Assembly: GCA_024742835.1 (NCBI GenBank)
Contig: JANSXS010000004.1
Span: forward strand, 1 to 64,000
Source of the DNA: Paracoccaceae bacterium
Lineage (GTDB): Bacteria > Pseudomonadota > Alphaproteobacteria > Rhodobacterales > Rhodobacteraceae
Reading direction: 5' to 3'
Length of the DNA stretch: 64,000 bases
A model generated the notes under the pieces. It saw only the letters and a program-made list of their open reading frames with translations, had not been told where the DNA came from and did not search any database. The translations under genes and the position numbers were made by a program. Shown piece by piece: positions 1,437 through 28,368 of this stretch. Numbering within the stretch: the first letter of the stretch is position 1; every line of letters begins with the position of its first letter.

Positions 1437-1512
1437 AGTAAGCGGCAACGACCTATGGTGGATCCGTTGTCATTTATTGCGGCTGTTTTGCCGCGCCCCA
1501 GGGAGGACTAAC

Positions 1513-3315
1513 ATGAAAAAGCTCCAGCTTTTCACTTCCGGGATCGCGCTTTGCTGTGCCTCGATGGCACTTGCAAACGATGATCTCATGACCCAGATGG
1601 ACGACCCCAAACAGTGGGCGATCCAGACCGGTGACTACGAAAACCAGCGGTATTCCGAACTTGACGAGATCACTGCCGAAAACGTGGGCGATCTTCAGGT
1701 CGCGTGGACCTTTTCGACCGGCGTTCTGCGTGGTCATGAAGGCGGCCCGCTTGTGATCGGCGACGTGATGTACGTTCACACGCCCTTCCCGAACACGGTC
1801 TATGCGCTTGACCTGTCCCAGGAAGGCAAGATCATCTGGAAATACGAGCCCAAGCAGGATCCCAACGTGATCCCGGTCATGTGCTGTGACACGGTCAACC
1901 GCGGTGTGGCCTATGCCGATGGCAAGATCATTCTGCACCAGGCCGACACTACCGTTGTGGCGCTTGACGCGGAAACCGGTGAAGTCGAATGGGAAGCCGT
2001 CAATGGCGATCCCAGCATCGGTGAAACCAACACCGCGACCGTTCTGCCGGTCAAGGACAAGGTCATCGTTGGCATTTCGGGCGGCGAATTCGGTGTCCGT
2101 GGTCACGTCACCGCCTACGATCTGAACTCCGGTGAGCAAGTCTGGCGCGCCTATTCGGTCGGTCCGGACGATGAAATGCTCGTCGACCCCGAAAAGACCA
2201 CCCATTTGGGCAAGCCTGTCGGCGAAAACTCCAGCCTTAACAGCTGGGAAGGCGACCAGTGGAAAATCGGTGGCGGCACCACATGGGGCTGGTTCTCGGC
2301 CGACATGGAAGAGAACCTGATGTACTACGGTACGGGTAACCCGTCTACGTGGAACCCCGCACAGCGCCCCGGCGACAACCGCTGGACCATGACTGTCATG
2401 GCCCGCGACATCGACACCGGCATGGCCAAGTGGTTCTACCAGATGACACCCCATGACGAGTGGGACTACGATGGTGTCAACGAGAACATCCTCACCGACC
2501 AGGAAATCGACGGCGAGATGCGCAAGCTTCTGACCCGCTTCGACCGTAACGGCCTGGCCTACACGATGGATCGGGTCTCGGGCGAGCTTCTGGTCGCTGA
2601 AAAGTTCGACCCGGTTGTCAACTGGACCACTGGCGTGGACATGGATCCTGATTCCGAAACCTATGGTCGTCCGCAGGTCGTGGCACAGTACTCGACATTG
2701 CAGAACGGCGAAGACGTGAACTCGACCGGCATCTGCCCGGCGGCTCTTGGTACCAAGGACCAGCAGCCTGCGTCCTACTCGCCCAGAACGCAGACTTTCT
2801 ACGTTCCCACCAACCACGTCTGCATGGACTATGAGCCGTTCCGTGTGTCCTACACCGCAGGTCAGCCCTATGTCGGCGCGACCCTGTCGATGTATCCCGC
2901 ACCGGATAGCCATGGCGGCATGGGTAACTTCATCGCCTGGGACAACATCAAGGGTGAAATCAAGTGGTCGATCCCTGAGCAGTTCTCGGTGTGGTCGGGT
3001 GCTCTGGCAACCGCGGGCGACGTCGTGTTCTACGGCACGCTCGAAGGTCACCTGAAAGCTGTCGATGCTGAAACCGGCGAGCAGCTGTATCAGTTCAAGA
3101 CTCCGTCGGGTATCATCGGCAACGTGATGACCTACGAATCCGATGGCAAGCAGTACATTGCCGTGCTGTCGGGTGTCGGTGGCTGGGCTGGCATCGGCCT
3201 CGCGGCTGGTCTGACCAACCCGAACGACGGCCTGGGCGCCGTGGGCGGCTACGCATCCCTGAGCGATTACACTGCTCTGGGTGGTCAGCTGACCGTGTTC
3301 GCACTGCCTGACTAA
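1513..3315 (+). CDS. xoxF: lanthanide-dependent methanol dehydrogenase XoxF
   Basis: PQQ-dependent periplasmic alcohol dehydrogenase oxidising methanol. The 600-residue product has a signal peptide (1-21, ALA|ND), the vicinal disulphide pair Cys124-Cys125 (VMCCDT) seen in quinoprotein methanol dehydrogenases, and the active-site motif WDYDG with Asp318 and Asp320. The second Asp (Ala in calcium MxaF enzymes) coordinates the lanthanide, so this is the XoxF type. The start is placed at 1513 because GGGAGGA precedes it; a longer in-frame version from 1477 would destroy the signal peptide. No mxaF or mxaI is seen in the window. Confidence 0.97.
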
Positions 3316-8093: not shown

Positions 8094-8241
8094 GGGCTTT
8101 CTTATAAATTAAGACTTCTGTCCACAGCGGACCCTGATACGTTTCCAACAGCAACCGGGCCGATGGTATTGGTTTCCAAGCCACCGCGATATGACCACGG
8201 TTCTGATCCGATTGGAATTCGGACTTTGGGAGGAAAAATTG
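8094..8241. promoter_or_regulatory. divergent intergenic control region
   Basis: 148 bases separate two divergent operons, the DUF3280 to SoxYZ operon (minus) and the Ped/Lut-like ABC operon (plus). Both transcripts must start here or nearby, so shared regulation is likely. GGGAGG at 8228-8233 is the RBS of the plus-strand gene. No operator could be recognised by eye. Confidence 0.5.
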
Positions 8242-9426
8242 ATGAAATTCGCTCTGACGCTGTTGGCGTCGGTCCTGTTTTTTGTCGGCGCAAGCCCTGC
8301 CTTCGCCATTGATGTGCGCGCGGCCGTTTTGCGGGTCGATTACCAAACGCTGTTGCCGCTTTCACGCTACGATGTACGGCCCGACGATCTGGGCTTTGCC
8401 GGCGCGGCGCTTGCCGATCAGGACAACAACACGACCGGGTCTTTCATGGGCCACAATTATGAAACCGTCCAAGTCAGCACCACACCGGATGACGCCGACG
8501 CGGCGCTTGATGCGATCCTCGCGGACGGCATTCGCCTGATCGTCGTTTTGGCGCGTGCCGAAGATCTTCTTCGGCTGACCGATCGCGCCGCCGAACAAGG
8601 CGCGCTGGTGTTCAACGCGCAGGCCCCGGACATGGCGCTGCGTGACACCGACTGCCGCGCAGGCTTGCTGCATACCAGCCTGTCCTACGGGATGAAAGCA
8701 GATGCGGTTGCGCAATTCGCAATCTGGAAAAAGTGGACAGACTGGCTTTTGGTGCATGGCTCCAACCCTGCCGATGTGGCCATGGCGGACGCGTTTCGCA
8801 ATGCTGCGAACAAGTTCGGTGCGCGGATCGTCGAAGAACGCGAATTCGAGGATACGGGGGGCAGCCGCCGCACCGATTCCGGTCATGTCATGGTGCAAAA
8901 ACAGCTTCCCGTCTTCATGCAGGGGGCCAAGGACCATGACGCGGTGATCGCGGCGGATGCCACAAATTACTTTGCAGGGTTCCTGCCGTACCACCTGTGG
9001 ACACCGAGGCCCGTGATGGGGTCCGGTGGTCTGGTTCCGGTCAATTTCCACGGCGCACACGAAGCCTATGGCGCGACCCAGTTCCAGACCCGGTTCGATG
9101 AGTTGACCCGGCGCTATGTCCGATCCGAGGATTTCAACGTCTGGCTTGCCTTGCGCGTGGTGGGCGAAGCGGTGACGCGGGCAAATACCGCCGATCCCAT
9201 GGGCGTGCTTGATTATGCCATGTCTGACGCTTTCGAACTGGCCGCATTCAAGGGGCAGAAGGTCACCTTCCGGAATTGGAATGGCCAGATCCGTCAGCCG
9301 GTTCTGCTTTACGACGGGATGCTTACGGTCAGCGTCAGCCCGCAGGAAGGCTTTCTGCACCAGACATCCCCGCTCGATACGATGGGGCTCGATCGCCCTG
9401 AATCCAACTGCACCGCCTTCAACTGA
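8242..9426 (+). CDS. PedA1/LutA-like ABC substrate-binding protein
   Basis: A 394-residue periplasmic binding protein of the type assigned to PQQ-dependent alcohol dehydrogenase systems. The signal peptide is MKFALTLL...AFA, cleaved near residue 22. The start at 8242 is chosen over an in-frame ATG at 8191 because GGGAGG precedes it and a clean signal peptide results. In Pseudomonas putida PedA1A2BC, and in the Lut system of Methylorubrum, the related ABC systems take part in lanthanide uptake, so the same role is inferred here. It heads a long operon running to 14995. Confidence 0.85.
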   Translation: MKFALTLLASVLFFVGASPAFAIDVRAAVLRVDYQTLLPLSRYDVRPDDLGFAGAALADQDNNTTGSFMGHNYETVQVSTTPDDADAALDAILADGIRLIVVLARAEDLLRLTDRAAEQGALVFNAQAPDMALRDTDCRAGLLHTSLSYGMKADAVAQFAIWKKWTDWLLVHGSNPADVAMADAFRNAANKFGARIVEEREFEDTGGSRRTDSGHVMVQKQLPVFMQGAKDHDAVIAADATNYFAGFLPYHLWTPRPVMGSGGLVPVNFHGAHEAYGATQFQTRFDELTRRYVRSEDFNVWLALRVVGEAVTRANTADPMGVLDYAMSDAFELAAFKGQKVTFRNWNGQIRQPVLLYDGMLTVSVSPQEGFLHQTSPLDTMGLDRPESNCTAFN

Positions 9427-9435
9427 GGAGCCAAC

Positions 9436-10407
9436 ATGAGACCATTTGTTCTCGCCACCGCCCTTGTCGCGTTTGCGTCACCGGTCTTTGCCGGGAAAGC
9501 ATTCGTGTCGAACGAGCGCGGCAATACCATTACGGTCGTGAATACCGAAACATGGGAGGTCGAAACCGAATTCTTCGGCGGCAACCGACCGCGCGGCATC
9601 ACCGTCAGCCCCGATGGCACCAAGCTTTATGTTTGTGCCTCGGATGACAATATCGTGCGTGTTTTCGATACCACGACCTACGAAGAGCTGCCGAGCCTGC
9701 CGTCCGGGCCGGACCCGGAGCTGTTCATCATCGAGCCCTCTGGCGAACGGCTTTATATCGCCAACGAGGACGACAATCTCGTCACCGTGACGAATACCAA
9801 CACCCGTCAGGTTCTGGCCGAGGTGCCGGTGGGTGTGGAACCCGAGGGCATGGGCATGAGCCCGGATGCGAAATGGGTGGTCAACACGTCCGAGACCACC
9901 AACATGGCGCATTTCATCTCGACCGAGGATTACTCGATCAAGCACAACGTGCTGGTCGATCAGCGCCCGCGCTATGCGCAATATACGGCGGATGGTACCC
10001 GGCTTTATGTCTCGTCCGAGATCGGTGGCACCGTGACGGTCATGGATATCGCCGAGGATGGCGCGCCGACCGTGGTGGGCAAGCTGACCTTCGAGGTGCC
10101 CGGCGTTCTGCCCGAGTGGCTTCAGCCCGTCGGCGTGAAGGTGACCAGCGATGGAAGCCGCGTCTTCGTCGCGCTTGGCCCCGCGAACCGTGTTGCGGTC
10201 GTGGATGGCGAAACGCTCGAAGTGCTGGATTACATCCTTGTCGGCCAGCGCGTCTGGCAGCTCGATTTCACGGCAGATGAAAAATACCTGATTTCGACGA
10301 ATGGCAATTCCAACGACATCACGGTGATCGACGTCGAAAAGGAAGAAGCCATCAAATCCGTCCAGGTGGGGCAACAGCCCTGGGGCGTTGTGACGATCAA
10401 GGACTGA
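9436..10407 (+). CDS. PedA2-like PQQ-associated beta-propeller
   Basis: A 323-residue secreted YVTN propeller (signal 1-19, VFA|GK) with repeated blades such as ITVVNTET, NRPRGITVSPDG and ITVIDVEKEE. This corresponds to the propeller always found between the binding protein and the ATPase in PQQ-associated ABC operons. It is a paralogue of the propeller at 6138-7100. It lies 9 bases downstream of the binding-protein gene, and RBS GAGGAG overlaps the previous stop. Confidence 0.85.
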   Translation: MRPFVLATALVAFASPVFAGKAFVSNERGNTITVVNTETWEVETEFFGGNRPRGITVSPDGTKLYVCASDDNIVRVFDTTTYEELPSLPSGPDPELFIIEPSGERLYIANEDDNLVTVTNTNTRQVLAEVPVGVEPEGMGMSPDAKWVVNTSETTNMAHFISTEDYSIKHNVLVDQRPRYAQYTADGTRLYVSSEIGGTVTVMDIAEDGAPTVVGKLTFEVPGVLPEWLQPVGVKVTSDGSRVFVALGPANRVAVVDGETLEVLDYILVGQRVWQLDFTADEKYLISTNGNSNDITVIDVEKEEAIKSVQVGQQPWGVVTIKD

Positions 10408-10421
10408 AAGGAACAAGACCG

Positions 10422-10862
10422 ATGAAAAAATTTCTTGCTGCCGTGTTTTCCGCCGCTGTGCTCTCTGGCCCCGCAATGGCTGCGCCGCTCTGTGACAATC
10501 TTGGCTTCGCCGGCCTTCTGGCCGCGTGCAACCGGGGTGAGACGATCGAGCTAACGCTTGCCTCCGGTGTTCCTCTTGGCGAGGATCAGGTGCTGCAATC
10601 GGGGGCGTATTACAAGCTTCAGATCACGGCAGACGGCTCTGCCGAACTGGCCATTACCGGGTCTGATTTCTTCCGCGCGATCTGGATGAACGAGATCGTC
10701 ATCAACCAGATCGAGATCCGCCCGATGGCCATCGACAGCCTTGAGTTCGACAAGGCGGGTGTCGCCGAGCTGTCCTTCATCGCGATCAAGCCGGGCAGCC
10801 ACACGCTGCGCATTCCAGGTTCAACGGGTGACGCACAAAGCGTGACCTTCTCCATCCAGTAA
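10422..10862 (+). CDS. exported protein of unknown function
   Basis: A 146-residue product with a clear signal peptide (1-21, AMA|AP). The mature protein has two cysteines near its start (CDNLGF and LAACN) that could form a disulphide, then a probable beta-sandwich with alternating hydrophobic residues (QIEIRP, LSFIAIKPGSHTL). This resembles small cupredoxin-like exported domains, but no copper ligands are evident. The position inside the Ped/Lut-like operon suggests a periplasmic accessory role. Not recognised further. Confidence 0.65.
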   Translation: MKKFLAAVFSAAVLSGPAMAAPLCDNLGFAGLLAACNRGETIELTLASGVPLGEDQVLQSGAYYKLQITADGSAELAITGSDFFRAIWMNEIVINQIEIRPMAIDSLEFDKAGVAELSFIAIKPGSHTLRIPGSTGDAQSVTFSIQ

Positions 10863-10877
10863 AGAGGATAATAGACC

Positions 10878-11132
10878 ATGAAACACGTATTTGCCTTTAT
10901 TGCCGCGGCCACATTGGCCGCACCGGCCTTTGCCGGCGCCCACGGGATCGACGAAGAGACCACGCAGAAGATCATGGCCATGCTGACAGAAATGGAATGT
11001 CAGATGGACCCGGCGGATATCGAGGTCGAGGATGATGGCTATGACCTTGACGACGTCATCTGCAAGGGTGGCAACCAGTTCGACATAAAACTGGACAAGG
11101 ACCTGAACGAGGTCGGCCGCCGCGCCGAGTAA
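10878..11132 (+). CDS. small acidic PepSY-domain protein (LanPepSY-like candidate)
   Basis: An 84-residue secreted protein (signal 1-19, AFA|GA) whose mature part fits a single PepSY domain ending in FDIKLDKDLNEV. It contains a dense acidic run, EVEDDGYDLDD, and about a third of its C-terminal half is Asp/Glu. LanPepSY of Methylobacillus flagellatus is a known lanthanide-binding PepSY protein. The family, acidic loops and location in a lanthanide-type operon suggest metal binding, which is an inference. Two cysteines may form a disulphide. Confidence 0.7.
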   Translation: MKHVFAFIAAATLAAPAFAGAHGIDEETTQKIMAMLTEMECQMDPADIEVEDDGYDLDDVICKGGNQFDIKLDKDLNEVGRRAE

Positions 11133-11153: not shown

Positions 11154-12119
11154 ATGCGCCTCCTGCGCAGTTTCATCGCCATCCTTCTGTGTCTCTCCCT
11201 GCCTGCGCAGTCAGAGGAGATGCCGATCCTGCGGCTTGCGGTTCTCCAGATCGGCACGGTCAACTGGGAGCTTGATACGATCATCCGGAATAATCTGGAT
11301 GAGAAGTACGGCTTCCAGCTTGACGTTCAGCCCTTTGCCGACAACGGTGCCACCCGGATCGCGGTGGCGGGCGATCAGGCCGATATGGCTGTCGCCGACT
11401 GGATCTGGGTCGCGCGGCAACGCGCGGCTGGCAAGGATTACGTTTTCATCCCCTATTCCAAGGCTGTGGGCGGCGTGGTTGTCCCCGATGACAGCCCGGC
11501 GCAGACGCTGGCCGATCTTGACGGTGGCAAACTGGGCATCGCGGGCGGGCCGCTGGACAAATCTTGGTTGATTCTGCGCGCCTATGCCGACCGCGAATAC
11601 GGGTTTGACCTAAAGGGCGGCACCGAACAGGTGTATGGTGCCCCGCCGCTTATTTTCAAATCCGCCCTCGGCGACGGCTATGAGGGCGCGATCAACTACT
11701 GGCATTTCCTCGCCAAGATGAAGGCCGAGGGCATGAGGGAGCTGGTCAATGTGGAACAGGCCACAACAGCCCTCGGCCTTGACCCCGACACGCCGCTTTT
11801 GGGATATTTTGGCAAGGGTGCCTTTTTCGACGAAAACCCGGCCCTTGCGCAGGCATTCTATGCCGCGACGCGGGACGCCAAGGATATCCTGCTGACATCC
11901 GATGCCGCGTGGGAGGACTTGCGCCCGGCCATGCGCGCCGAAAGCGAGGCGGAATTCCAGACTCTGCGCGCGGATTGGCGCGCCGGTGTGCCCGCGCGCG
12001 GCCCGGTCAAGGCGCAGGACGCCGCCGCAATGCTGTCCTTGCTGGCCGAACTTGGCGGTGCGGACCTGGTGGGGAAGGCGACGGACCTGCCAGCGGGCCT
12101 GTTCGCCCGGGTTGAATGA
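11154..12119 (+). CDS. NMT1/TauA-type ABC substrate-binding protein
   Basis: A 321-residue periplasmic binding protein of the nitrate/sulfonate/taurine (NMT1) superfamily: signal peptide 1-20, then LAVLQIGTVNWELDTII and a typical SBP fold with AVAGDQADMAVADWIW. It is the first of three genes encoding a full importer (with 12135 and 12881). The ligand cannot be read from sequence. Nested inside the Ped/Lut-like operon, it may take up a metal-chelating small molecule or a cofactor, which is inference only. Confidence 0.8.
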   Translation: MRLLRSFIAILLCLSLPAQSEEMPILRLAVLQIGTVNWELDTIIRNNLDEKYGFQLDVQPFADNGATRIAVAGDQADMAVADWIWVARQRAAGKDYVFIPYSKAVGGVVVPDDSPAQTLADLDGGKLGIAGGPLDKSWLILRAYADREYGFDLKGGTEQVYGAPPLIFKSALGDGYEGAINYWHFLAKMKAEGMRELVNVEQATTALGLDPDTPLLGYFGKGAFFDENPALAQAFYAATRDAKDILLTSDAAWEDLRPAMRAESEAEFQTLRADWRAGVPARGPVKAQDAAAMLSLLAELGGADLVGKATDLPAGLFARVE

Positions 12120-12134
12120 ACCATTCCCGTCCTG

Positions 12135-12884
12135 ATGCCCGATAACCGCGCTACACCGTTCCTGTCGATATTGGGGCTGTTGACACTCTGGGTTGTCGCG
12201 GCGCTGTTGACAGATGATCCCCAGACCCTGCCAACCCCGTGGCAGCTTATCCCGCTTTTCCAGCGGGAACTGGCCTCTGGCGAACTGGTCCATCATCTGG
12301 GTGCGACCCTGATCCGGGTGATGTGGGCCTTCACGCTGGCGATGGGGTTCGGCGTGGCACTCGGGATCGTCATGGGACGTTCCGAGCGGGTCAATCGTTG
12401 GCTCGACCCGTGGCTGGTGATCTTTCTCAACTTGCCCGCGCTGGTGCTGATCGTACTGTGTTATCTGTGGATCGGTCTGACGGAAATCGCGGCGATCCTT
12501 GCCGTGACCTTCAACAAGATCCCGAACGTGGCCACGGTCGTGCGCGAGGGTGCGCGCGCGCTTAGCCCGGATCTTGATGCCATGGCCAAGGTTTACCGTA
12601 TGTCATGGCTGGCCCGGTTGCGGCATGTGGTTCTGCCGCAATTGGCGCCCTACATCGCCGCCGCCGCGCGGGGCGGCGTCGCGGTGATCTGGAAAATCGT
12701 GCTGGTGGTGGAATTCCTTGGACGGTCCTCGGGCATCGGGTTTCAGATCCACCTTTATTTCCAGCTTTTCGATGTGGCGATGGTGCTGGTCTATGCGCTG
12801 TCCTTCATATTCGTGATGCTGTTGGTCGAATGGGCCATCCTGCAACCGTGGGAACGGCGTGTCAGACGCTGGCGCAGCGCATGA
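12135..12884 (+). CDS. TauC/SsuC-type ABC transporter permease
   Basis: A 249-residue inner-membrane permease with about six hydrophobic segments and the EAA-like loop VREGARALSPDLDAMAKVYRM near residue 135, characteristic of nitrate/sulfonate/taurine importers. Fifteen bases separate it from the binding-protein gene and its stop overlaps the ATPase start (ATGA). It forms the membrane channel of the importer encoded with 11154 and 12881. Confidence 0.87.
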   Translation: MPDNRATPFLSILGLLTLWVVAALLTDDPQTLPTPWQLIPLFQRELASGELVHHLGATLIRVMWAFTLAMGFGVALGIVMGRSERVNRWLDPWLVIFLNLPALVLIVLCYLWIGLTEIAAILAVTFNKIPNVATVVREGARALSPDLDAMAKVYRMSWLARLRHVVLPQLAPYIAAAARGGVAVIWKIVLVVEFLGRSSGIGFQIHLYFQLFDVAMVLVYALSFIFVMLLVEWAILQPWERRVRRWRSA

Positions 12885-13480
12885 TCAAGGTAGCGATCCT
12901 GTCGAAAAGCTATGGCGACACGCAGGTTCTGGGCCGTGTGGAATTCGCCGTGCAAGCGGGAGAAACCGTGGCGCTTGTCGGCCCGTCGGGCATTGGCAAA
13001 TCCACCATTCTGCGGATCGTCGCGGGCATAGACGGCGCATTCGAAGGGCAGGTCGAGCGCCCCGACGCGGCGGCGATCGTGTTTCAGGAACCCACGTTGC
13101 TCCCGTGGCGATCGGCGCTGGACAACCTGCTTTTGACCTGTCCGGGCCTAAAGCCTGACGCGGCCCTGCACGCGCTTGACCGTGTAGGTCTTGCGGGCAA
13201 GGACAAGGAATTTCCCGGTCAACTGTCGCTGGGTCAGCAACGCCGCCTGTCGCTGGCGCGCGCCTTTGCCGGGCGGCCCGGTATGCTGATCCTTGACGAG
13301 CCTTTCGTGTCGCTTGATCCGCACATGGCCGATACGATGATGACCCTGACCGAAGACCTGATTGCAGAGGCGCGGCCCGCGACCTTGCTGGTGACCCATG
13401 CCGAGGCCGAGGCCAATCGCCTTGCCGACCGGGTGCTGAGGCTGCAAGGTGACCCGGCGACCCTGAAAGCGGAGAGTTAG
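12881..13480 (+). CDS. TauB/SsuB-type ABC transporter ATP-binding protein
   Basis: A 199-residue ATPase with Walker A GPSGIGKST, Q-loop FQEPTLLPW, signature LSLGQQRRLSLARA and Walker B MLILDEPF. The signature has SLGQQ instead of SGGQ, as in some family members. It is slightly short for the family, lacking a C-terminal extension. The start is ATG at 12881, overlapping the permease stop by four bases; a longer frame exists upstream but only inside the permease gene. It energises the nested importer. Confidence 0.87.
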   Translation: MIKVAILSKSYGDTQVLGRVEFAVQAGETVALVGPSGIGKSTILRIVAGIDGAFEGQVERPDAAAIVFQEPTLLPWRSALDNLLLTCPGLKPDAALHALDRVGLAGKDKEFPGQLSLGQQRRLSLARAFAGRPGMLILDEPFVSLDPHMADTMMTLTEDLIAEARPATLLVTHAEAEANRLADRVLRLQGDPATLKAES

Positions 13481-13484
13481 CCCC

Positions 13485-14204
13485 ATGTCCGACGGCTTGA
13501 CCGTGCGCGAACTGAGCTTCAATTACGGCCCCAAGCAGGCGCTGAAGGATGTGTCCTTCAGCCTGCCACGCGGGCAATTCTGCGCGTTGCTTGGTCCGAA
13601 TGGCGCAGGCAAATCGACGCTGGTGTCATTGCTCACCCGTCTGCTTGTGTCGCCCAAGGGCGAGATCGAGATCGCGGGGCACGATCTGCGCCGCGCCCCG
13701 CGCAAGGCGATGGCGGATCTGGGCGTGGTGTTCCAGCAACCCACGCTCGATCTGGAACTGAGCGTGAGGCAGAACATGGCCTATTTCGCCGCGCTGCACG
13801 GTATGCCGCTCAAGGGTCAGCGAGAGAAGATCGACGCGGCGCTTGACCGGCTCAACATGCTGGAACGGTCCGAGGAGAAGGTGCGCGCGCTCAATGGCGG
13901 GCACCGGCGGCGGATGGAACTGGCGCGGGCGCTTTTGCACGAACCCAAGGTGCTGTTGCTGGACGAGCCGACCGTGGGCCTCGATGCGGCTGCGCGGCAT
14001 TCCATCGTGGAGCATGTTCACGATCTGGCCGAGGGCGATCTTTGCGTGATCTGGACAACACACCTGACCGACGAGGTGCGCGACACCGATCATCTTCTGG
14101 TGCTGCATCAGGGGCGTCTGCTTGCAAATGGCACCACCCGCGACGTGCGGGGCAATCAGCCGCTGCCGGACTGGTTCCTGTCACAAACCGAGGTGACGGC
14201 ATGA
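13485..14204 (+). CDS. PedB/LutE-like ABC ATP-binding protein, PQQ-linked
   Basis: A 239-residue ATPase of the subfamily associated with PQQ-dependent alcohol dehydrogenases: Walker A GPNGAGKST, Q-loop VFQQPTLD, an atypical signature LNGGHRRRMELARA and Walker B VLLLDEPT. It pairs with the permease at 14201, whose ATG overlaps its stop. Its overall type (ABC-2 family) is normally an exporter, although the Ped and Lut systems are linked experimentally to lanthanide uptake, so the transport direction is open. Confidence 0.88.
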   Translation: MSDGLTVRELSFNYGPKQALKDVSFSLPRGQFCALLGPNGAGKSTLVSLLTRLLVSPKGEIEIAGHDLRRAPRKAMADLGVVFQQPTLDLELSVRQNMAYFAALHGMPLKGQREKIDAALDRLNMLERSEEKVRALNGGHRRRMELARALLHEPKVLLLDEPTVGLDAAARHSIVEHVHDLAEGDLCVIWTTHLTDEVRDTDHLLVLHQGRLLANGTTRDVRGNQPLPDWFLSQTEVTA

Positions 14205-14995
14205 GCGGCTGGTTTCTGGTTATGCGCGCCATCGTCGGGCGCGAATTTCTGCGTTTCGTACATCAGCGGGAACGCTTCATCGCGGCACTGGTGCGCCCGC
14301 TCGTGTGGCTGATCATCTTCGCCGCGGGGTTCCGCGCGGCACTTGGCCTGTCGATCATCCCGCCCTACCAGACATATATAACCTACCAGACTTATATCGT
14401 GCCGGGCCTGTGTGGCATGGTGCTTTTGTTCAACGGGATGCAAAGCTCCCTGAGCCTTGTCTACGACCGCGAGATGGGGTCGATGCGGCTTTTGCTGACA
14501 AGCCCGTTCCCGCGCGGGTGGCTGTTGTTTTGCCGACTGTTGGGATCGACGACGATATCGGTTGTACAAGTGTACACGTTTCTGGGCATCGCCGCGCTCG
14601 TTGGGATCACGATGCCGGCCATGGGATATATCACCGTGCTGCCGGCGCTGTTCCTGGCCGGGTTCATGCTGGGCGCATTGGGGCTTGTGCTGTCGAGTTT
14701 CATCAAGCAGCTTGAAAACTTTGCCGGGGTCATGAATTTCGTCATCTTCCCGATGTTCTTCATGTCGTCGGCTCTTTATCCCTTGTGGAAAATGGCTGAA
14801 AGTTCGGAGCTGTTGCGCGATATCTGCGCGCTCAACCCGTTTACCTACGCGGTCGAACTGATCCGGTTTTCGCTTTATCTTCAGGTGAACCTTGCAGCGA
14901 TCGGCTGGGTGACGCTTTGCACGCTGGTGCTTGGCTGGCTGGCGATCTGGGCCTACGATCCGTCGCGCGGATTGATGAAGCGCAAGGGTGGGTGA
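14201..14995 (+). CDS. PedC/LutF-like ABC-2 type permease
   Basis: A 264-residue membrane protein with about six transmembrane segments and an ABC-2 fold (motifs LVYDREMGSMRLLLTSP and a MFFMSSALYPLW segment). It matches the alcohol-system permease PedC. The start is ATG at 14201 in a four-base overlap with the ATPase. It is the last gene of the Ped/Lut-like operon before the two-component genes 56 bases further on. Confidence 0.87.
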   Translation: MSGWFLVMRAIVGREFLRFVHQRERFIAALVRPLVWLIIFAAGFRAALGLSIIPPYQTYITYQTYIVPGLCGMVLLFNGMQSSLSLVYDREMGSMRLLLTSPFPRGWLLFCRLLGSTTISVVQVYTFLGIAALVGITMPAMGYITVLPALFLAGFMLGALGLVLSSFIKQLENFAGVMNFVIFPMFFMSSALYPLWKMAESSELLRDICALNPFTYAVELIRFSLYLQVNLAAIGWVTLCTLVLGWLAIWAYDPSRGLMKRKGG

Positions 14996-15051: not shown

Positions 15052-16638
15052 ATGCCGCGAAAACTTCTCGACTCTCTCAAGGCGCGGCTGGGGATTGGCG
15101 CGGCCCTGCTTGGGGTCGGGTCCATTCTGACAGCGGGCATTCTTTACATCGGCATGACAGAGGTCGCGAAAAGGCTGGATGCGGCGCTTGCGTCTGAACA
15201 GCGGATGGCGCGCTATTCCGTCTTGTCGACACAGACCTCGACCTTTCTGGTGATCGCTACCGAAACGATCCAGACCGGACAATCCCCCGAGATTCGCATG
15301 GACCGGATCACGCCTGCGGCCACCAAGATCAAGGAGACCTTCACTTTATTGCACGCCGACCTCAAGGATGCAGTCGAGCAGGCGCGCGAAATCGGCATTG
15401 ACGAACAATCGCGCCATGGCACCCAATCGCTGGGCCTCGCGCGGATGGAGGCGATGCTCAACAACACGATGCGCGGCTTGGCGGTGCCGGATGCGGAGCA
15501 GCCACGCCTGCGTGCCTATATCGATGGTTATGCCACCAGCGTCGATCCGCTGCTCAATGAGGCTGTCAATACAGAGGTCTTGTTTCGCAACAACATCCTT
15601 GCCGGGATAGAGGATCTGCGCCGGTCCCTGTCGCTGACGGCCATCGTGATCGCTGGTCTGACTGTTTTGATGGTGTTGATCTTTTACGTGGTGTTGATCC
15701 GCCCGCAATTCCTGCGGCTAGACCGCCTCAGACAGGCGGCGCGTGAAATCGGGAACGAGAATTTCGCCGTGGCACTGCCAACGGGCCGTCAGGACGAGAT
15801 CGGGCAGCTTTACCAAGAGACCAACCGCATGGCCGCGGCGCTGTCGGAACGCCAGCGCGGGGTGCAGGCGGAATGGGCACGTTTGAACGACACGATCGAA
15901 CAACGCACCCAGGAACTGCGGGCCGCCAACGCCACACTGGAAGAGATTGACGAAAACCGCCGCAGGTTTTTTGCAGATATCAGCCACGAGTTGCGCACAC
16001 CCCTGACCGTCATCCTGATGGAGGCGCAATTGGGTCAGCAGGGCGCGGCGGATGGCGATGGTGCCTTTGCCACGATCGCGGCGCGGGCACAGCGGCTGAA
16101 TCGTAGGATTGACGATCTTTTGCGGGTGGCACGTTCCGATTCAGGCCAACTCAGTCTTGAACCTGCGCCCACCTCCCTTGCCGCCGTGGCCTGCGACGTG
16201 GTCGAGGAAATACAGGCGGAACTGGACAATGCCGGGATGCAGCTTGAGATGGGCGAGGTGCCGGATATCAAGATCCTTTGTGATGCTAACTGGCTGCGGC
16301 AGGTCGTTGTCGGACTGGTGCGCAATTCGGTGCGCCATGCGCGCGGGGGCGGCCGCTTAAGGCTTGCGCCCGACATCAGCGCCGATCATGCCGGGCTTGC
16401 CATAAGCGACAACGGGCCGGGAATCGCGCCTGAATATCACGCAAGGATCTTTGACCGTTTCAGTCAGGGGGGGCAGCCGAATGCACAGGGATTCGGCCTT
16501 GGTCTGGCGCTTGCCAAATGGGTGACCGAGGCGCAGGATGGCGAAACAGAGCTGATCAGCCCGGTCCCTGAACAAGAGTCGCTTGGCGCGGAACCCGGTA
16601 CCAAAATAGTGGTTCGCATGCCGCGTGTGGCGGACTAG
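15052..16638 (+). CDS. membrane sensor histidine kinase
   Basis: 528 residues: transmembrane helix about 13-35, a helical periplasmic sensor of about 155 residues, second helix about 193-216, HAMP region, coiled coil around 270-300, the H-box ISHELRTPLT with His312 as phosphorylation site, and a HATPase domain (NSVRHA, DNGPGIAP, GFGLGLALAK). It is followed by its response regulator 9 bases later. Its location between the Ped/Lut-like and pqq genes suggests control of methanol, lanthanide or PQQ genes. The stimulus is unknown. Confidence 0.9.
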   Translation: MPRKLLDSLKARLGIGAALLGVGSILTAGILYIGMTEVAKRLDAALASEQRMARYSVLSTQTSTFLVIATETIQTGQSPEIRMDRITPAATKIKETFTLLHADLKDAVEQAREIGIDEQSRHGTQSLGLARMEAMLNNTMRGLAVPDAEQPRLRAYIDGYATSVDPLLNEAVNTEVLFRNNILAGIEDLRRSLSLTAIVIAGLTVLMVLIFYVVLIRPQFLRLDRLRQAAREIGNENFAVALPTGRQDEIGQLYQETNRMAAALSERQRGVQAEWARLNDTIEQRTQELRAANATLEEIDENRRRFFADISHELRTPLTVILMEAQLGQQGAADGDGAFATIAARAQRLNRRIDDLLRVARSDSGQLSLEPAPTSLAAVACDVVEEIQAELDNAGMQLEMGEVPDIKILCDANWLRQVVVGLVRNSVRHARGGGRLRLAPDISADHAGLAISDNGPGIAPEYHARIFDRFSQGGQPNAQGFGLGLALAKWVTEAQDGETELISPVPEQESLGAEPGTKIVVRMPRVAD

Positions 16639-16647
16639 GTATATCCT

Positions 16648-17331
16648 ATGAAAACCCGACTTTTGATTGTTGACGATGATCCGGAAATCACCTCGGCGCT
16701 TGCCCGTGGTCTGGCGCTGCATGGCTATGAGGCTCAGACCGAAAATCGTGCCGACCGCGCCTTGCTGCGTTTGCAGAAAGACAGCTTTTCCGGCGCGGTG
16801 ATCGATGTGATGCTTGGTGCCGATAGCGGGCTTGATCTGGTGCGAAGCGCGCGGTCGCAGGGGATCAACCTGCCGATCCTCATGCTGTCTGCCTTGTCGG
16901 ATGTAGAGCATCGCGCCGCCGGGCTTGAGGCCGGCGCGGATGATTACGTGGTCAAGCCGTTCTCGTTTGACGAACTGGTCGCGCGGCTCAGGGTGCAAGA
17001 GCGACGCGCCGGACAGCAGCGCCCGATGCCTGCGATGCTTGACCAAGGCACACGCATCCTGAGTTGCGAGACGGGTCAGGTTGCCCTGACAGAGCGTGAA
17101 TTTTCGCTCTTGGATCTGCTTTTGCGCGATCCGGGCACGCCTTTGTCCCGCGGAGACATCTTTGATTGCCTGTGGGCAGCCGAGGGTTCGGGCAACGAAA
17201 ACGTGGTCGATGTCTATATTGGCTACCTGCGGAAAAAGTTGAGTGAGCGGGATTTTGGATTTGAAATCAGGACGATACGTAACAAGGGCTTTTGTCTTGA
17301 CGGGGCGGTGCCTCGCCGGGATGCTACGTGA
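16648..17331 (+). CDS. OmpR-family response regulator
   Basis: 227 residues: receiver domain with acidic pocket VDDDPE near residue 8, phosphoacceptor Asp53 (VIDVMLG) and conserved Lys in VVKPFSF, then a winged-helix DNA-binding domain ending in IRTIRNKGFCLDG. Cognate partner of the kinase encoded immediately upstream. It is a candidate direct regulator of pqqA, 113 bases downstream, and of xoxF. Confidence 0.9.
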   Translation: MKTRLLIVDDDPEITSALARGLALHGYEAQTENRADRALLRLQKDSFSGAVIDVMLGADSGLDLVRSARSQGINLPILMLSALSDVEHRAAGLEAGADDYVVKPFSFDELVARLRVQERRAGQQRPMPAMLDQGTRILSCETGQVALTEREFSLLDLLLRDPGTPLSRGDIFDCLWAAEGSGNENVVDVYIGYLRKKLSERDFGFEIRTIRNKGFCLDGAVPRRDAT

Positions 17332-24763: not shown

Positions 24764-24852
24764 GCGTAAAATCACCCCCGCTCTGCCCACAATAATCCAC
24801 ATTTCCTGCGGATATTGTTTCCGAAGGCGAAACCGCAAGAAGGGTGTGTTCC

Positions 24853-26175
24853 ATGAGCGTGACGAGTGAGACCGATGGCCCGAAAGGGCTTTTCCGAAAG
24901 TCGGCTCTGGACAAGGCGGGCGCGGCCGCAATCGAAAATGTCGATCTGGGCGTCCATGTCGTTCGAGCGCCGCAATGGCTCATGCTGGCCGCTGCCTGTG
25001 CCGTGGCCTTGGCGGCGGTGGGGCTCAGCCTTCATCTGCCCGTGCCGTCCAAGGTCGCGGCGCAGGGCATCCTGATCACTGCGCAGGGTCTCAAGGATAT
25101 CGAATCCGCAGCCGCCGGGCGCGTTGCCGCAGTATTCGTTGCACCGGGCGATTTTGTCATGCGGGGGCAAAAGGTGGCCCAGATAGAACAGCCCGATCTG
25201 GATCAGGCGCTGGAACAGGCACAGGACAAGATGGCCAACCTGCGCAATCGTCACAAGCGGATCGTCGGTTTCCACGATCGCACCCGGTCCGATTACGAGG
25301 GCATGACCGCTCAGCGCCGGGCCGAGCTCGAAAACATGATCGAATACGACAAACAGCACGTGGAATGGCTGCGCACGAACCTTGAAGGGTACGAGCGGCT
25401 GTCGGAACAAGGTCTGACCTCCAAGATGAAGCTGATGGACGCCCGCGTGCGTCTCAACGAAGCCGAAGAGGCCCTGTTGCGCGACACCAACGCGCTGGCG
25501 TCGCTGGGCTATGAAAGCAACACCCGCCAGATCGAGCAGGAGCGCGAGATCCTGTCGCTGGATGTTGCCATCGAAGAGGCCCGCCGCGAGGTATCGGCGC
25601 TGCGCGAACGCCGTCAGCGCATGGCCTATCTGGAAAGCGCCTATGATGGCGTCGTGGTCGAGCAAAAGCTGAATGTCGGCGAACTGGTGGACCCTGGTAT
25701 GTCGGTGCTGTCGATCCTGCCGGGCGTGTCGCAAAAGGAGGTGGCGGGCAAGCAGGCCAATATCCCACTTGTTGCGACGCTCTATATCTCGTCTTCCGAA
25801 GGCAAGAAGGTGCAGCCTGGCATGGCGGTGCAGATCGTGCCCTCGACCGTCAAGCGCGAGGTTTACGGGTTCATTCACGGCACCATCACCGATGTCGCCA
25901 CCGTGGCCTCGACCGAAGAGGGCATGATGCGCAATCTCAAAAACCGCCAGCTGGTGCAAGATCTGTCGGCCCAGGGCGCGCCTTTTGCCGCGACAGCACA
26001 GCTTGAGGTGTCGTCCGAGACGATCTCGGGCTATCGCTGGTCGTCCTCGGACGGGCCGGACCAGACAATCGGGCCGGGCAGCATGGCGCAGGCTGAAATC
26101 ATCACCAAGGAACAGCGGCTGATTTCCCTTGTCATGCCTGCGCTGCGCCGCCTGTTCAGCGATTTCACGTCATGA
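24853..26175 (+). CDS. HlyD-like adaptor of NHLP-type export system
   Basis: A 440-residue membrane-fusion protein: cytoplasmic N-terminus, one transmembrane helix at about 41-62, lipoyl-like half (GILITAQGLKDIESAAAGRV), coiled-coil hairpin about 115-260, and beta-barrel part (DGVVVEQKLNVGELVDPGM). It matches the HlyD component of NHLP/NHLM export loci. AAGAAGGG precedes the ATG; an in-frame GTG at 24844 is a less likely start. Its stop overlaps the start of the C39 transporter gene. It should bridge the inner-membrane ABC complex to an outer-membrane channel such as TolC, which is not encoded here. Confidence 0.85.
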   Translation: MSVTSETDGPKGLFRKSALDKAGAAAIENVDLGVHVVRAPQWLMLAAACAVALAAVGLSLHLPVPSKVAAQGILITAQGLKDIESAAAGRVAAVFVAPGDFVMRGQKVAQIEQPDLDQALEQAQDKMANLRNRHKRIVGFHDRTRSDYEGMTAQRRAELENMIEYDKQHVEWLRTNLEGYERLSEQGLTSKMKLMDARVRLNEAEEALLRDTNALASLGYESNTRQIEQEREILSLDVAIEEARREVSALRERRQRMAYLESAYDGVVVEQKLNVGELVDPGMSVLSILPGVSQKEVAGKQANIPLVATLYISSSEGKKVQPGMAVQIVPSTVKREVYGFIHGTITDVATVASTEEGMMRNLKNRQLVQDLSAQGAPFAATAQLEVSSETISGYRWSSSDGPDQTIGPGSMAQAEIITKEQRLISLVMPALRRLFSDFTS

Positions 26176-28367
26176 GCGTTGCAGAGTTTACCGCCGCGCT
26201 ACCCCGGCAGGGGGCGCGCGCCCGTGTGCCGACCGTCATGCAGCAGGAAACCGCGGAATGCGGCGCGGCCTGTCTGGCGATGGTGCTGGCCCGTTTCGGA
26301 CGCTGGGTCAGCCTGGAAGAACTGCGCGACCGCTGTCAGGTAAGCCGCGATGGCACCAATTCCGCCAATATCCTTAGCGCCGCGCGCGGTTATGGGCTGG
26401 AGGCGAAGGGCCTCAAGACCGATATCGCCGATCTTCCCACCGCCGGGCTGCCGCTGATCCTGTTCTGGAACTTCAACCATTTCGTTGTGCTGGAACAGAT
26501 CAGCTGCAAGGGCGCGCGGATCAACGACCCGGCCACCGGCCCGCGCCGGGTGGACTTGGCAGAGTTCGACCGATGCTACACCGGCGTGGCGCTGTCGCTG
26601 CGCCCCGGCCCAGAGTTTCGCCGGGGCGGCCAGCGGCCCAGCCTTGTGGCCATCGTGCTGCGCATGTTGGGCGAGGCGCGCAGCGGGCTGATCTATGCCG
26701 TGATCGCGGGCGTGGCGCTGCTGGTGCCGGGCCTTGCCGTGATGGGCAGTTACCGAATCTTTACCGACGACATCCTGATCGGTGGCGAAACGCGCTGGCT
26801 GATGCCTCTTCTGATCGGGCTGGTGGCCGCCGGGTGCCTGACAGCGCTGCTGACATTTGCGCAAAAGAACGTGCTGGCGCGGATGGAAACGTCGCTCGCG
26901 GCCTCCATGTCGCTGCGCTATCTCTGGACGGTGATGAGCCTGCCGCTGGAGTTTTTTGCGCAACGCTATTCCGGCGATATCACCAACCGCATCACCCAGG
27001 CCGACCAGATGTCGAGTGTAGTGTCCAGCGGCCTTGCCGTGGCGCTGGTGGGGATCGTGCCAATCCTTGGCTACGGGGTCGCGCTTATGATGATCGACCC
27101 GGTTCTGGCATCCATCACCTTTGGTGGGGCCGCCCTGTCAGTGCTGCTGCTGATCGTAGCTTCCCGGCTGCTTCAGGACGCCAACCGCCGCGCCCAGAAT
27201 GACGAGGCCCGCTTGCAGGGTCTGACGCTTCAGGGATTGTCCATGCGCGACGATTTCCGCGCCTCGGGCAGCGAGGGGCTTTTTCATACACGCTGGCAGG
27301 GCGCGCAGGCACGGGTGCTAGTGGGCGAACAGACCACCGGGCGCGCGAACCTCTGGGTCAGCGAGGTGGCGGCCCTCATCCTTGCGCTGGCGGGTATCGG
27401 CGTGCTGGTGGTCGGTGGCTTGCGGATCATGGAAGGGGCGCTGTCCATCGGGTTGCTGATCTCGGCGCGGGCGCTGATGGCGAACTTTTCGGGGCCTGTT
27501 GTGGGCCTTGTCGATGCGGGTACGCAGATGCAATCGGTGCGCGGCGTGACAGAACGGCTGGCGGACGCGATGAACCATTCGGCAAACACCGCCCCCGTGC
27601 CTGTTGTCGCAAAGCCCGACATGGCGGAGGACACGCCCGACACCGACGGCCCGGTGCCGCCCTTACGCGCCACAAATGTCACCTTCCGCTATGGCGCAAG
27701 CAGCCCGGCGGCGGTTGACGATGTGTCGCTGAGCCTTGGTGAAAGCCAGCGGATCGCGCTGGTCGGCGGCAGCGGCAGCGGCAAGTCCAGCCTTGGGCGG
27801 CTGCTGGTCGGGCTGGCCACGCCGGACAGCGGGCGGATCGACATTTACGGTCGGCCACTTGCAGCGGACGGATCGGCGCGGCGGGATGGGCAGGTGGCCT
27901 ATGTGGGCCAGACGGTGGATCTGTTCGGTGACACGGTGCAGGACAATATTACCCTCTGGGACGACACGATGCCCGAAGAACAGGTGATCGCGGCGGCGCA
28001 GGATGCCTGCATCCACGATGTCATCACCGCCCGCGCCGGTGGCTATCTGGCGCGGCTGTCCGAAGATGGTGGCAATCTGAGCGGCGGCGAACGTCAACGT
28101 CTCGGCATTGCCCGTGCGCTTGTGGGCAATCCGCGCATCCTTGTGCTGGACGAAGCCACAAGCGCGCTTGATCCGACCACAGAGTTGCAGGTTCTCGACG
28201 CGCTGCGCCGACGCGGCTGTGCCACGGTGATGATCTCTCACCGGCTGGCAAGCGTGGTCAACTGCGACGTGATCCATGTCATGAGCGAAGGCCGGATTGT
28301 GGAAAGCGGCAACCACCGGATGCTGCTGCGGCGTGGCGGCGTCTATGCCGCGATGATGAGGAGCTGA
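26172..28367 (+). CDS. C39 peptidase-containing ABC transporter (PCAT, NHLP type)
   Basis: 731 residues. The N-terminal C39 cysteine protease domain (1-145) has Cys30 in QQETAECGAAC, His103 in NFNHFVVLE and Asp119 in INDPATGPR, so the catalytic set is intact. It is followed by a six-helix membrane domain (about 165-440) and an ATPase domain with Walker A GGSGSGKSS, signature LSGGERQRLGIARA and Walker B LVLDEATSALD. It should cut leaders after Gly-Gly and export the cargo. The only double-glycine protein seen nearby is the 852-residue product at 22149. Confidence 0.92.
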   Translation: MSVAEFTAALPRQGARARVPTVMQQETAECGAACLAMVLARFGRWVSLEELRDRCQVSRDGTNSANILSAARGYGLEAKGLKTDIADLPTAGLPLILFWNFNHFVVLEQISCKGARINDPATGPRRVDLAEFDRCYTGVALSLRPGPEFRRGGQRPSLVAIVLRMLGEARSGLIYAVIAGVALLVPGLAVMGSYRIFTDDILIGGETRWLMPLLIGLVAAGCLTALLTFAQKNVLARMETSLAASMSLRYLWTVMSLPLEFFAQRYSGDITNRITQADQMSSVVSSGLAVALVGIVPILGYGVALMMIDPVLASITFGGAALSVLLLIVASRLLQDANRRAQNDEARLQGLTLQGLSMRDDFRASGSEGLFHTRWQGAQARVLVGEQTTGRANLWVSEVAALILALAGIGVLVVGGLRIMEGALSIGLLISARALMANFSGPVVGLVDAGTQMQSVRGVTERLADAMNHSANTAPVPVVAKPDMAEDTPDTDGPVPPLRATNVTFRYGASSPAAVDDVSLSLGESQRIALVGGSGSGKSSLGRLLVGLATPDSGRIDIYGRPLAADGSARRDGQVAYVGQTVDLFGDTVQDNITLWDDTMPEEQVIAAAQDACIHDVITARAGGYLARLSEDGGNLSGGERQRLGIARALVGNPRILVLDEATSALDPTTELQVLDALRRRGCATVMISHRLASVVNCDVIHVMSEGRIVESGNHRMLLRRGGVYAAMMRS

Positions 28368-28368
28368 G

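Follow-up and report, generated by a model that had tools for sequence, protein, structure and literature searches.

Introduction

LanPepSY (LanP) of Methylobacillus flagellatus is described as a periplasmic PepSY protein of a methylotroph with metal sites formed by Glu and Asp (PMC11845868). The protein is reported to contain two PepSY domains with a molecular mass of about 19 kDa. Among methanotrophs, LanPepSY is reported from Methylococcaceae and once from Methylothermaceae (PMC12482762). UipA is a uranyl-binding PepSY protein in which the metal is held by a negatively charged face (PMC8963506). In recombinant E. coli, the lanpepsy gene is reported not to have increased the binding of La or Tb (PMC11899968), a caution for the class. 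The four ped genes of P. putida form one predicted transcript (PMC6839425), and Rhodobacteraceae are described as prominent among coastal marine xoxF5 sequences (PMC5934484). The question touched by these systems is the route of lanthanide ions through the periplasm to XoxF. Here, a stretch of 64,000 nucleotides from a Paracoccaceae bacterium (assembly GCA_024742835.1, contig JANSXS010000004.1, positions 1 to 64,000; hereafter the window) was analyzed with respect to a gene encoding a small secreted PepSY protein within a PedA1A2BC/Lut-like operon. The protein very probably serves the XoxF/Lut system. The preferred reading, given a probability of roughly 0.55, is that of an accessory protein that handles metal in the periplasm, belongs to the operon serving XoxF and binds Ln(III).

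Results

A secreted single-domain PepSY protein

The open reading frame (ORF) begins with ATG and encodes 84 residues (Table 1). The end of the signal peptide was assigned by eye, and cleavage between APAFA and GAHG would leave the 65-residue mature form given in an earlier note made from the sequence alone. The profile search revealed a match to PF13670 (PepSY_2) covering residues 4-79 of 84 with an E-value of 8e-11 and 42.2 bits versus the gathering cut-off of 24.3, the sole PepSY_2 match in this genome. These results are in agreement with the earlier description of a secreted one-domain PepSY protein containing the acidic run EVEDDGYDLDD, which spans residues 49-59. The ratio of non-synonymous to synonymous differences per site (pN/pS) was 0.24-0.40 against eight orthologues in the same operon slot and 0.52 against a diverged tandem copy, values indicating that the ORF is a gene under purifying selection. 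A diverged second copy in tandem is located directly after the first at L014:2152-2427, with 34% identity and both Cys residues kept.

A length of 80-90 residues was found in 31 relatives, and for 37 of 44 relatives PepSY_2 was the sole Pfam family matched, at E <= 0.01. Residues C41, D58, D59, C62, Q67 and D69 were invariant in all 44, and D44 and E49 almost invariant. The controls were 24 other PepSY_2 proteins of the same family, obtained from 25 loci hand-picked as outside Lut operons of which L124 was dropped for want of a match. The Cys pair with LDDxxC was present in 44/44 relatives versus 0/24 controls; the loose pattern C-x(18-24)-C was found in three controls over the whole open frame and in none within the last 90 residues. 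The strict hairpin pattern [DE][DE]G-x-aromatic/Ile, in contrast, was found in 23/24 controls versus 28/44 members of the group. Since nearly all controls have the hairpin and none has LDDxxC, half of the acidic run is ordinary PepSY sequence whereas the LDD half is group-specific. The run was therefore rejected as stand-alone evidence, the argument drawn from it in the earlier note being generic in part.

Acidity was computed over an anchored core of approximately 63 residues. Asp and Glu together accounted for 30.6% with a net charge of -14.4 in the group (n = 44), versus 21.7% and -6.0 in the 24 controls, with p-values that are not strict because several controls (L095-L104) are mutually close paralogues. 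The window protein, at 28.6% and a net charge of -12, is slightly under the group mean. Only the LDDxxC/Cys-pair form and the overall acidity distinguish the group from other PepSY_2 proteins.

Operon position and co-occurrence with XoxF

Matches to TIGR03863, TIGR03866 and TIGR03864 together with an ABC2_membrane permease establish the PedA1A2BC/Lut-like operon proposed in the earlier note. The gene had also been placed next to xoxF. Both are in the same cluster; however, they are not adjacent, the end of xoxF being separated from the start of the PepSY gene by 7,562 bp and ten intervening genes, four of them on the opposite strand.

A genus-level sample of 100 genomes (the own genome, 59 of the genus and 40 of the class) contained 12 with a match, comprising the own genome, eight with strong relatives and three with weak ones. 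All eight strong same-genus homologues occupied the same operon slot, and no cluster gene was found beside the three weak same-genus matches (L022-L024). In a family sample of 394 genomes, a PepSY match was obtained in 37 at E <= 0.001 and in 32 at E <= 1e-20, the latter defined as strong carriers. XoxF, called at an identity of 75% or more, was found in 49 of the 394. XoxF was present in 29/32 strong carriers versus 20/362 other family genomes (Fisher p 1.6e-27). The gene for a 146-residue secreted protein, here named unk146, was present in all 30 fetched strong family loci (the strong genome G344 was outside this set). Among 113 unk146-bearing genomes, PepSY was found in 29/46 with XoxF versus 3/67 without (p 5.9e-12; this p-value and the preceding one ignore the kinship of the genomes, which counts against the preferred reading). 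The split indicates that PepSY tracks XoxF-type Lut operons and not the ATP-binding cassette (ABC) system generally. No Lut genes adjoined the weak family-level matches (L084-L089), which came from five genomes and included a second copy in G361 in addition. A partial second PepSY match was also seen in G316. A class-wide search of 385 genomes, among them the own genome and several from the family, returned the own genome and three weak matches (E 2e-10 to 3e-9), whose short fetched flanks contained none of the cluster genes. The gene is rare across the class and the group is alphaproteobacterial within the genomes searched, by searches that score a capped number of candidates and can therefore miss diverged copies, as in G153.

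Named genomes were scanned as well, and of the 153 relatives confirmed there the 80 best were examined; these loci, which may share a genome (L181 and L198), were mainly from Rhodobacterales and also from Roseibium, Rhodomicrobium, Methyloligella and other Hyphomicrobiales metagenome-assembled genomes (MAGs). The gene for unk146 was immediately upstream of PepSY in 71 loci, 2-3 kb downstream in seven and not seen in two, and pedA2 was nearby in 67. Combined with the same-genus homologues, these counts (78/80 for unk146) show that the gene keeps its position within the pedA1A2BC/lut operon from one lineage to another. XoxF was encoded in the locus for 49 of the 80 and elsewhere in the genome for 26 of the other 31. 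In the remaining five, without XoxF, the genome encoded another pyrroloquinoline quinone-dependent alcohol dehydrogenase (PQQ-ADH) with WD[YF]DG. The motif check covered these five and the 49 in-locus XoxF copies, two of which are cut at the locus end before the motif. The WD[YF]DG motif marks lanthanide use by PQQ-ADH. Homologues residing mainly in genomes without XoxF, the contrary outcome named in the earlier note, were not found: 29/32 strong carriers have XoxF and 75/80 named loci are in XoxF genomes. The Cys/LDD motif was present in 80/80 named loci, a count that is partly circular because the scan patterns contained the motif. One Rhodobacterales-type Lut operon (L175) was found on a 622-kb contig filed under the actinobacterial name Enemella evansiae TN21-6, probably the result of contamination or misnaming.

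The same survey bears on a role as ligand of the downstream sensor kinase, in which the PepSY protein would report periplasmic metal as DbfQ does in Vibrio cholerae. A kinase and regulator are encoded downstream on the same strand in the window, and the kinase gene of P. alcaliphilus is the fourth after PepSY. The window kinase, however, is the sixth gene downstream, beyond the four-gene vicinity described for two-component genes in PMC12714742, and a kinase homologue was found within 9 kb in only 32/80 loci versus 78/80 for unk146 (some loci being cut by contig ends). A kinase ligand is considered distinctly improbable.

Structural model and the partner protein

The AlphaFold model of the PepSY protein, obtained with a 10-row alignment, had a predicted local distance difference test score (pLDDT) of at least 92 in each 10-residue block from residue 31. 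The model predicts a helix at residues 26-38 and strands at 48-51, 54-62, 67-72 and 78-83. The top Foldseek match was UipA (PDB 7ath), to which VIA-align superposed 59 residues with Z 7.1, a root-mean-square deviation (rmsd) of 2.2 A and 25% identity. The corresponding values for a Parabacteroides calcium-binding protein were Z 7.2 and rmsd 4.0. Sequence searches of the PDB with the PepSY protein, the PepSY profile A2 and the unk146 profile yielded nothing meaningful.

No family in Pfam or NCBIfam was found for unk146. The predicted model (pLDDT 86) gave 309 structure matches at E <= 0.001, which were cupredoxin-fold proteins; those listed were mostly copper oxidases, nitrite reductases and AcoP with TM-scores of about 0.5. 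No His, Cys or Met was invariant in the unk146 alignment, whereas E75, E98, E108 and D110 were. With a presence in 113/394 family genomes, unk146 is commoner than PepSY and is a candidate core Lut component.

In several Hyphomicrobiales MAGs, the stretches fetched on either side of the unk146-PepSY pair contain neither a pedA nor a pedB homologue, an arrangement suggesting that the basic unit is the pair itself. Such tight pairing, with unk146 immediately upstream in most named loci, is also what would be expected if the PepSY protein belonged to the Lut/Xox system without binding lanthanide, as an interaction or assembly module (for example for XoxF maturation or for unk146) with an acidity that serves protein contacts. 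The Cys pair persists where the acidic motif has decayed (L244), and this role is further favored because the PepSY domain has reportedly long been tied to peptidase regulation, a link said to go back to Yeats et al. in 2004. Contacts alone, however, hardly explain the exceptional carboxylate density and the invariant Asp pair, and two other PepSY proteins, UipA and LanPepSY, are reported to bind f-element ions (PMC8963506, PMC11845868). An assembly module is regarded as unlikely.

Absences and copper-cluster relatives

Several results weigh against the preferred reading of a lanthanide-binding protein that serves XoxF. The PepSY_2 match is short of E 0.01 in 7/44 relatives, and the structural match has weak scores (Foldseek E 0.16; Z under 8). 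There is no strong PepSY match in 81/113 family genomes with unk146 or in 20/49 XoxF genomes of the family. Twenty stretches were fetched from 18 of these 20 genomes (G107 and G218 were left out), of which 16 hold unk146, and in 11/16 of these pedB or the gene for a second substrate-binding protein (SBP2) follows directly. The PepSY gene is thus not a general constituent of Lut/Ped operons. It is absent from the Lut operons of Sinorhizobium meliloti (pSymA) and Phyllobacterium. It is likewise missing from three Roseobacter operons, which are located on plasmids (L213-L215) and represent a second Lut/Ped type that encodes PedF and a PQQ-ADH, labeled as PedH-type, in which WDYDG is also present. 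Furthermore, a PepSY-like protein in the same slot in G153 (L244) keeps the Cys pair with IQD replacing LDD. This protein constitutes a natural test of the need for the Asp pair.

Close plasmid relatives from S. meliloti and S. medicae (L092:8911-9168 and L217:6911-7168) adjoin genes for CopC/CopD and YcnI and for a second PepSY-domain protein, also a point against lanthanide specificity. The copper-cluster relative is identical to the S. fredii Lut-operon protein at 67/85 residues. The XoxF/Lut operons without the gene, together with these relatives, indicate that the PepSY protein is dispensable and that its link to lanthanides is perhaps not a strict one. They also raise the alternative of a protein for copper or another transition metal, with the place in the Lut operon incidental or the result of metal cross-talk, for which the two invariant Cys and the cupredoxin fold predicted for unk146 could likewise be adduced. 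Nevertheless, nine of 14 matching plasmid records were examined and seven represented Lut/Xox clusters versus two copper clusters, and the two count as one event because the protein accessions are identical. Moreover, all 80 named loci are in genomes with XoxF or another WD[YF]DG ADH, unk146 has no invariant His, Cys or Met, and a disulfide is the likelier state of two Cys in an exported protein. A copper protein is judged very improbable.

Organization of the gene cluster

The cluster begins, from left to right, with fghA, xoxF, cycB/xoxG, xoxJ and a gene for a CXXCW protein. Minus-strand genes for a SoxYZ-like carrier, a beta-propeller protein, a START-like protein and a DUF3280 protein follow. 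Next are pedA1/lutA, pedA2/lutD, unk146, PepSY, a three-gene NMT1-type ABC importer, pedB/lutE, pedC/lutF, the histidine kinase and the regulator, followed by genes read as pqqBCDE from Pfam families and gene order. Thus, five genes (unk146, PepSY and those of the importer) are located between pedA2 and pedB. The importer, of the NMT1/THI5 type, is complete (11154-13480), and its substrate-binding protein is encoded directly after PepSY in 60/80 loci; a lanthanophore or a thiamine-like compound is a possible substrate. Elsewhere in the window, a Peptidase-C39 ABC exporter (26172-28367) and another exporter of the ABC type (28369-31191) are encoded beside large ORFs without a Pfam match, and the region 24844-31191 is possibly a peptide export locus.

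Table 1. Positions in the window of the PepSY gene and of associated genes.
Feature	Position	Strand	Remarks
PepSY gene	10878..11132	+	84-aa secreted single-domain PepSY_2 protein, predicted 65 aa mature; conserved C41/C62, D58-D59, Q67, D69
xoxF, XoxF-type PQQ methanol dehydrogenase	1477..3315	+	WDYDG
PedA1/LutA-type substrate-binding protein	8191..9426	+	TIGR03863
PedA2/LutD-type beta-propeller protein	9436..10407	+	TIGR03866
unk146 partner, 146-aa secreted protein	10422..10862	+	no Pfam/NCBIfam family; predicted cupredoxin fold
Second substrate-binding protein (SBP2), NMT1/THI5-like	11154..12119	+	inserted in operon
Permease of second ABC importer	12135..12884	+	BPD_transp_1
ATPase of second ABC importer	12881..13480	+	start assigned by eye inside the longer mechanical ORF 12605-13480
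PedB/LutE-type ATPase	13485..14204	+	TIGR03864
PedC/LutF-type permease	about 14201..14995	+	ABC2_membrane; start assigned by eye inside mechanical ORF 14042-14995
Histidine kinase (15052-16638) and response regulator (16648-17331)	15052..17331	+	downstream of operon

Discussion

The results are most consistent with an accessory metal-handling protein of the Lut/Ped operon. Direct binding of lanthanide is given slight preference. The 65-residue mature domain would adopt a single PepSY fold unusually rich in carboxylates, with C41 and C62 probably joined in a disulfide that closes it. The putative Ln(III) site would most likely comprise carboxylates around E49, D58-D59 and D69 and bind the ion with weak to moderate strength. 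The protein could then buffer Ln(III) or hand the ion to the Lut substrate-binding proteins or XoxF in the periplasm, probably working with the cupredoxin-fold unk146 encoded just upstream. A more speculative proposal, offered tentatively and perhaps doubtful, is a two-protein periplasmic lanthanide relay of Rhodobacterales and some Hyphomicrobiales in which Ln(III) would travel between the Lut substrate-binding proteins and XoxF by way of a disulfide-locked 65-residue PepSY protein and a cupredoxin-fold protein whose copper site has been lost. If true, the relay would represent a small lanthanide chaperone family distinct from LanM and LanPepSY, and unk146 would enlarge the known Lut set. A soluble one-domain binder of 65 residues, if confirmed, would be easy to test and engineer.

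The literature searched describes no small lanthanide-binding protein for Rhodobacteraceae, and the portions consulted of publications on PepSY and methanol dehydrogenase (PMC12482762, PMC11845868, PMC12828617) describe no PepSY protein of one domain for the Lut operons of Rhodobacterales. In the main texts of the P. putida ped paper (PMC6839425), the M. extorquens lut paper and the Roseobacter XoxF paper (PMC5934484), the term PepSY does not occur.

DbfQ of V. cholerae resembles the window protein in that both are small secreted proteins with a single PepSY domain; however, DbfQ is reported to contain 135 residues and to be encoded directly upstream of its two-component system (PMC12714742), whereas the window kinase is six genes away. 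UipA of Microbacterium shares the PepSY fold and is the best structural match of the window protein, although it is described as a single-pass membrane protein with tandem PepSY domains as a swapped dimer in a uranium/iron setting (PMC8963506).

In the window, the orthologues of pedA1, pedA2, pedB and pedC are in the same order as described for PedA1A2BC of P. putida and lut of M. extorquens (PMC6839425, PMC7391723). The window differs from both by the five extra genes between pedA2 and pedB.

LanPepSY, to which the earlier note had likened the protein, is also a periplasmic PepSY-domain protein of a lanthanide/methylotroph setting. The likeness is limited to fold class and setting because the two-domain architecture is absent; architecture sets the two apart, as does distribution, LanPepSY being reported from the methanotroph families cited above and the window group being alphaproteobacterial in the genomes searched. 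With one domain of 65 mature residues versus two domains, the window protein is by architecture not LanPepSY.
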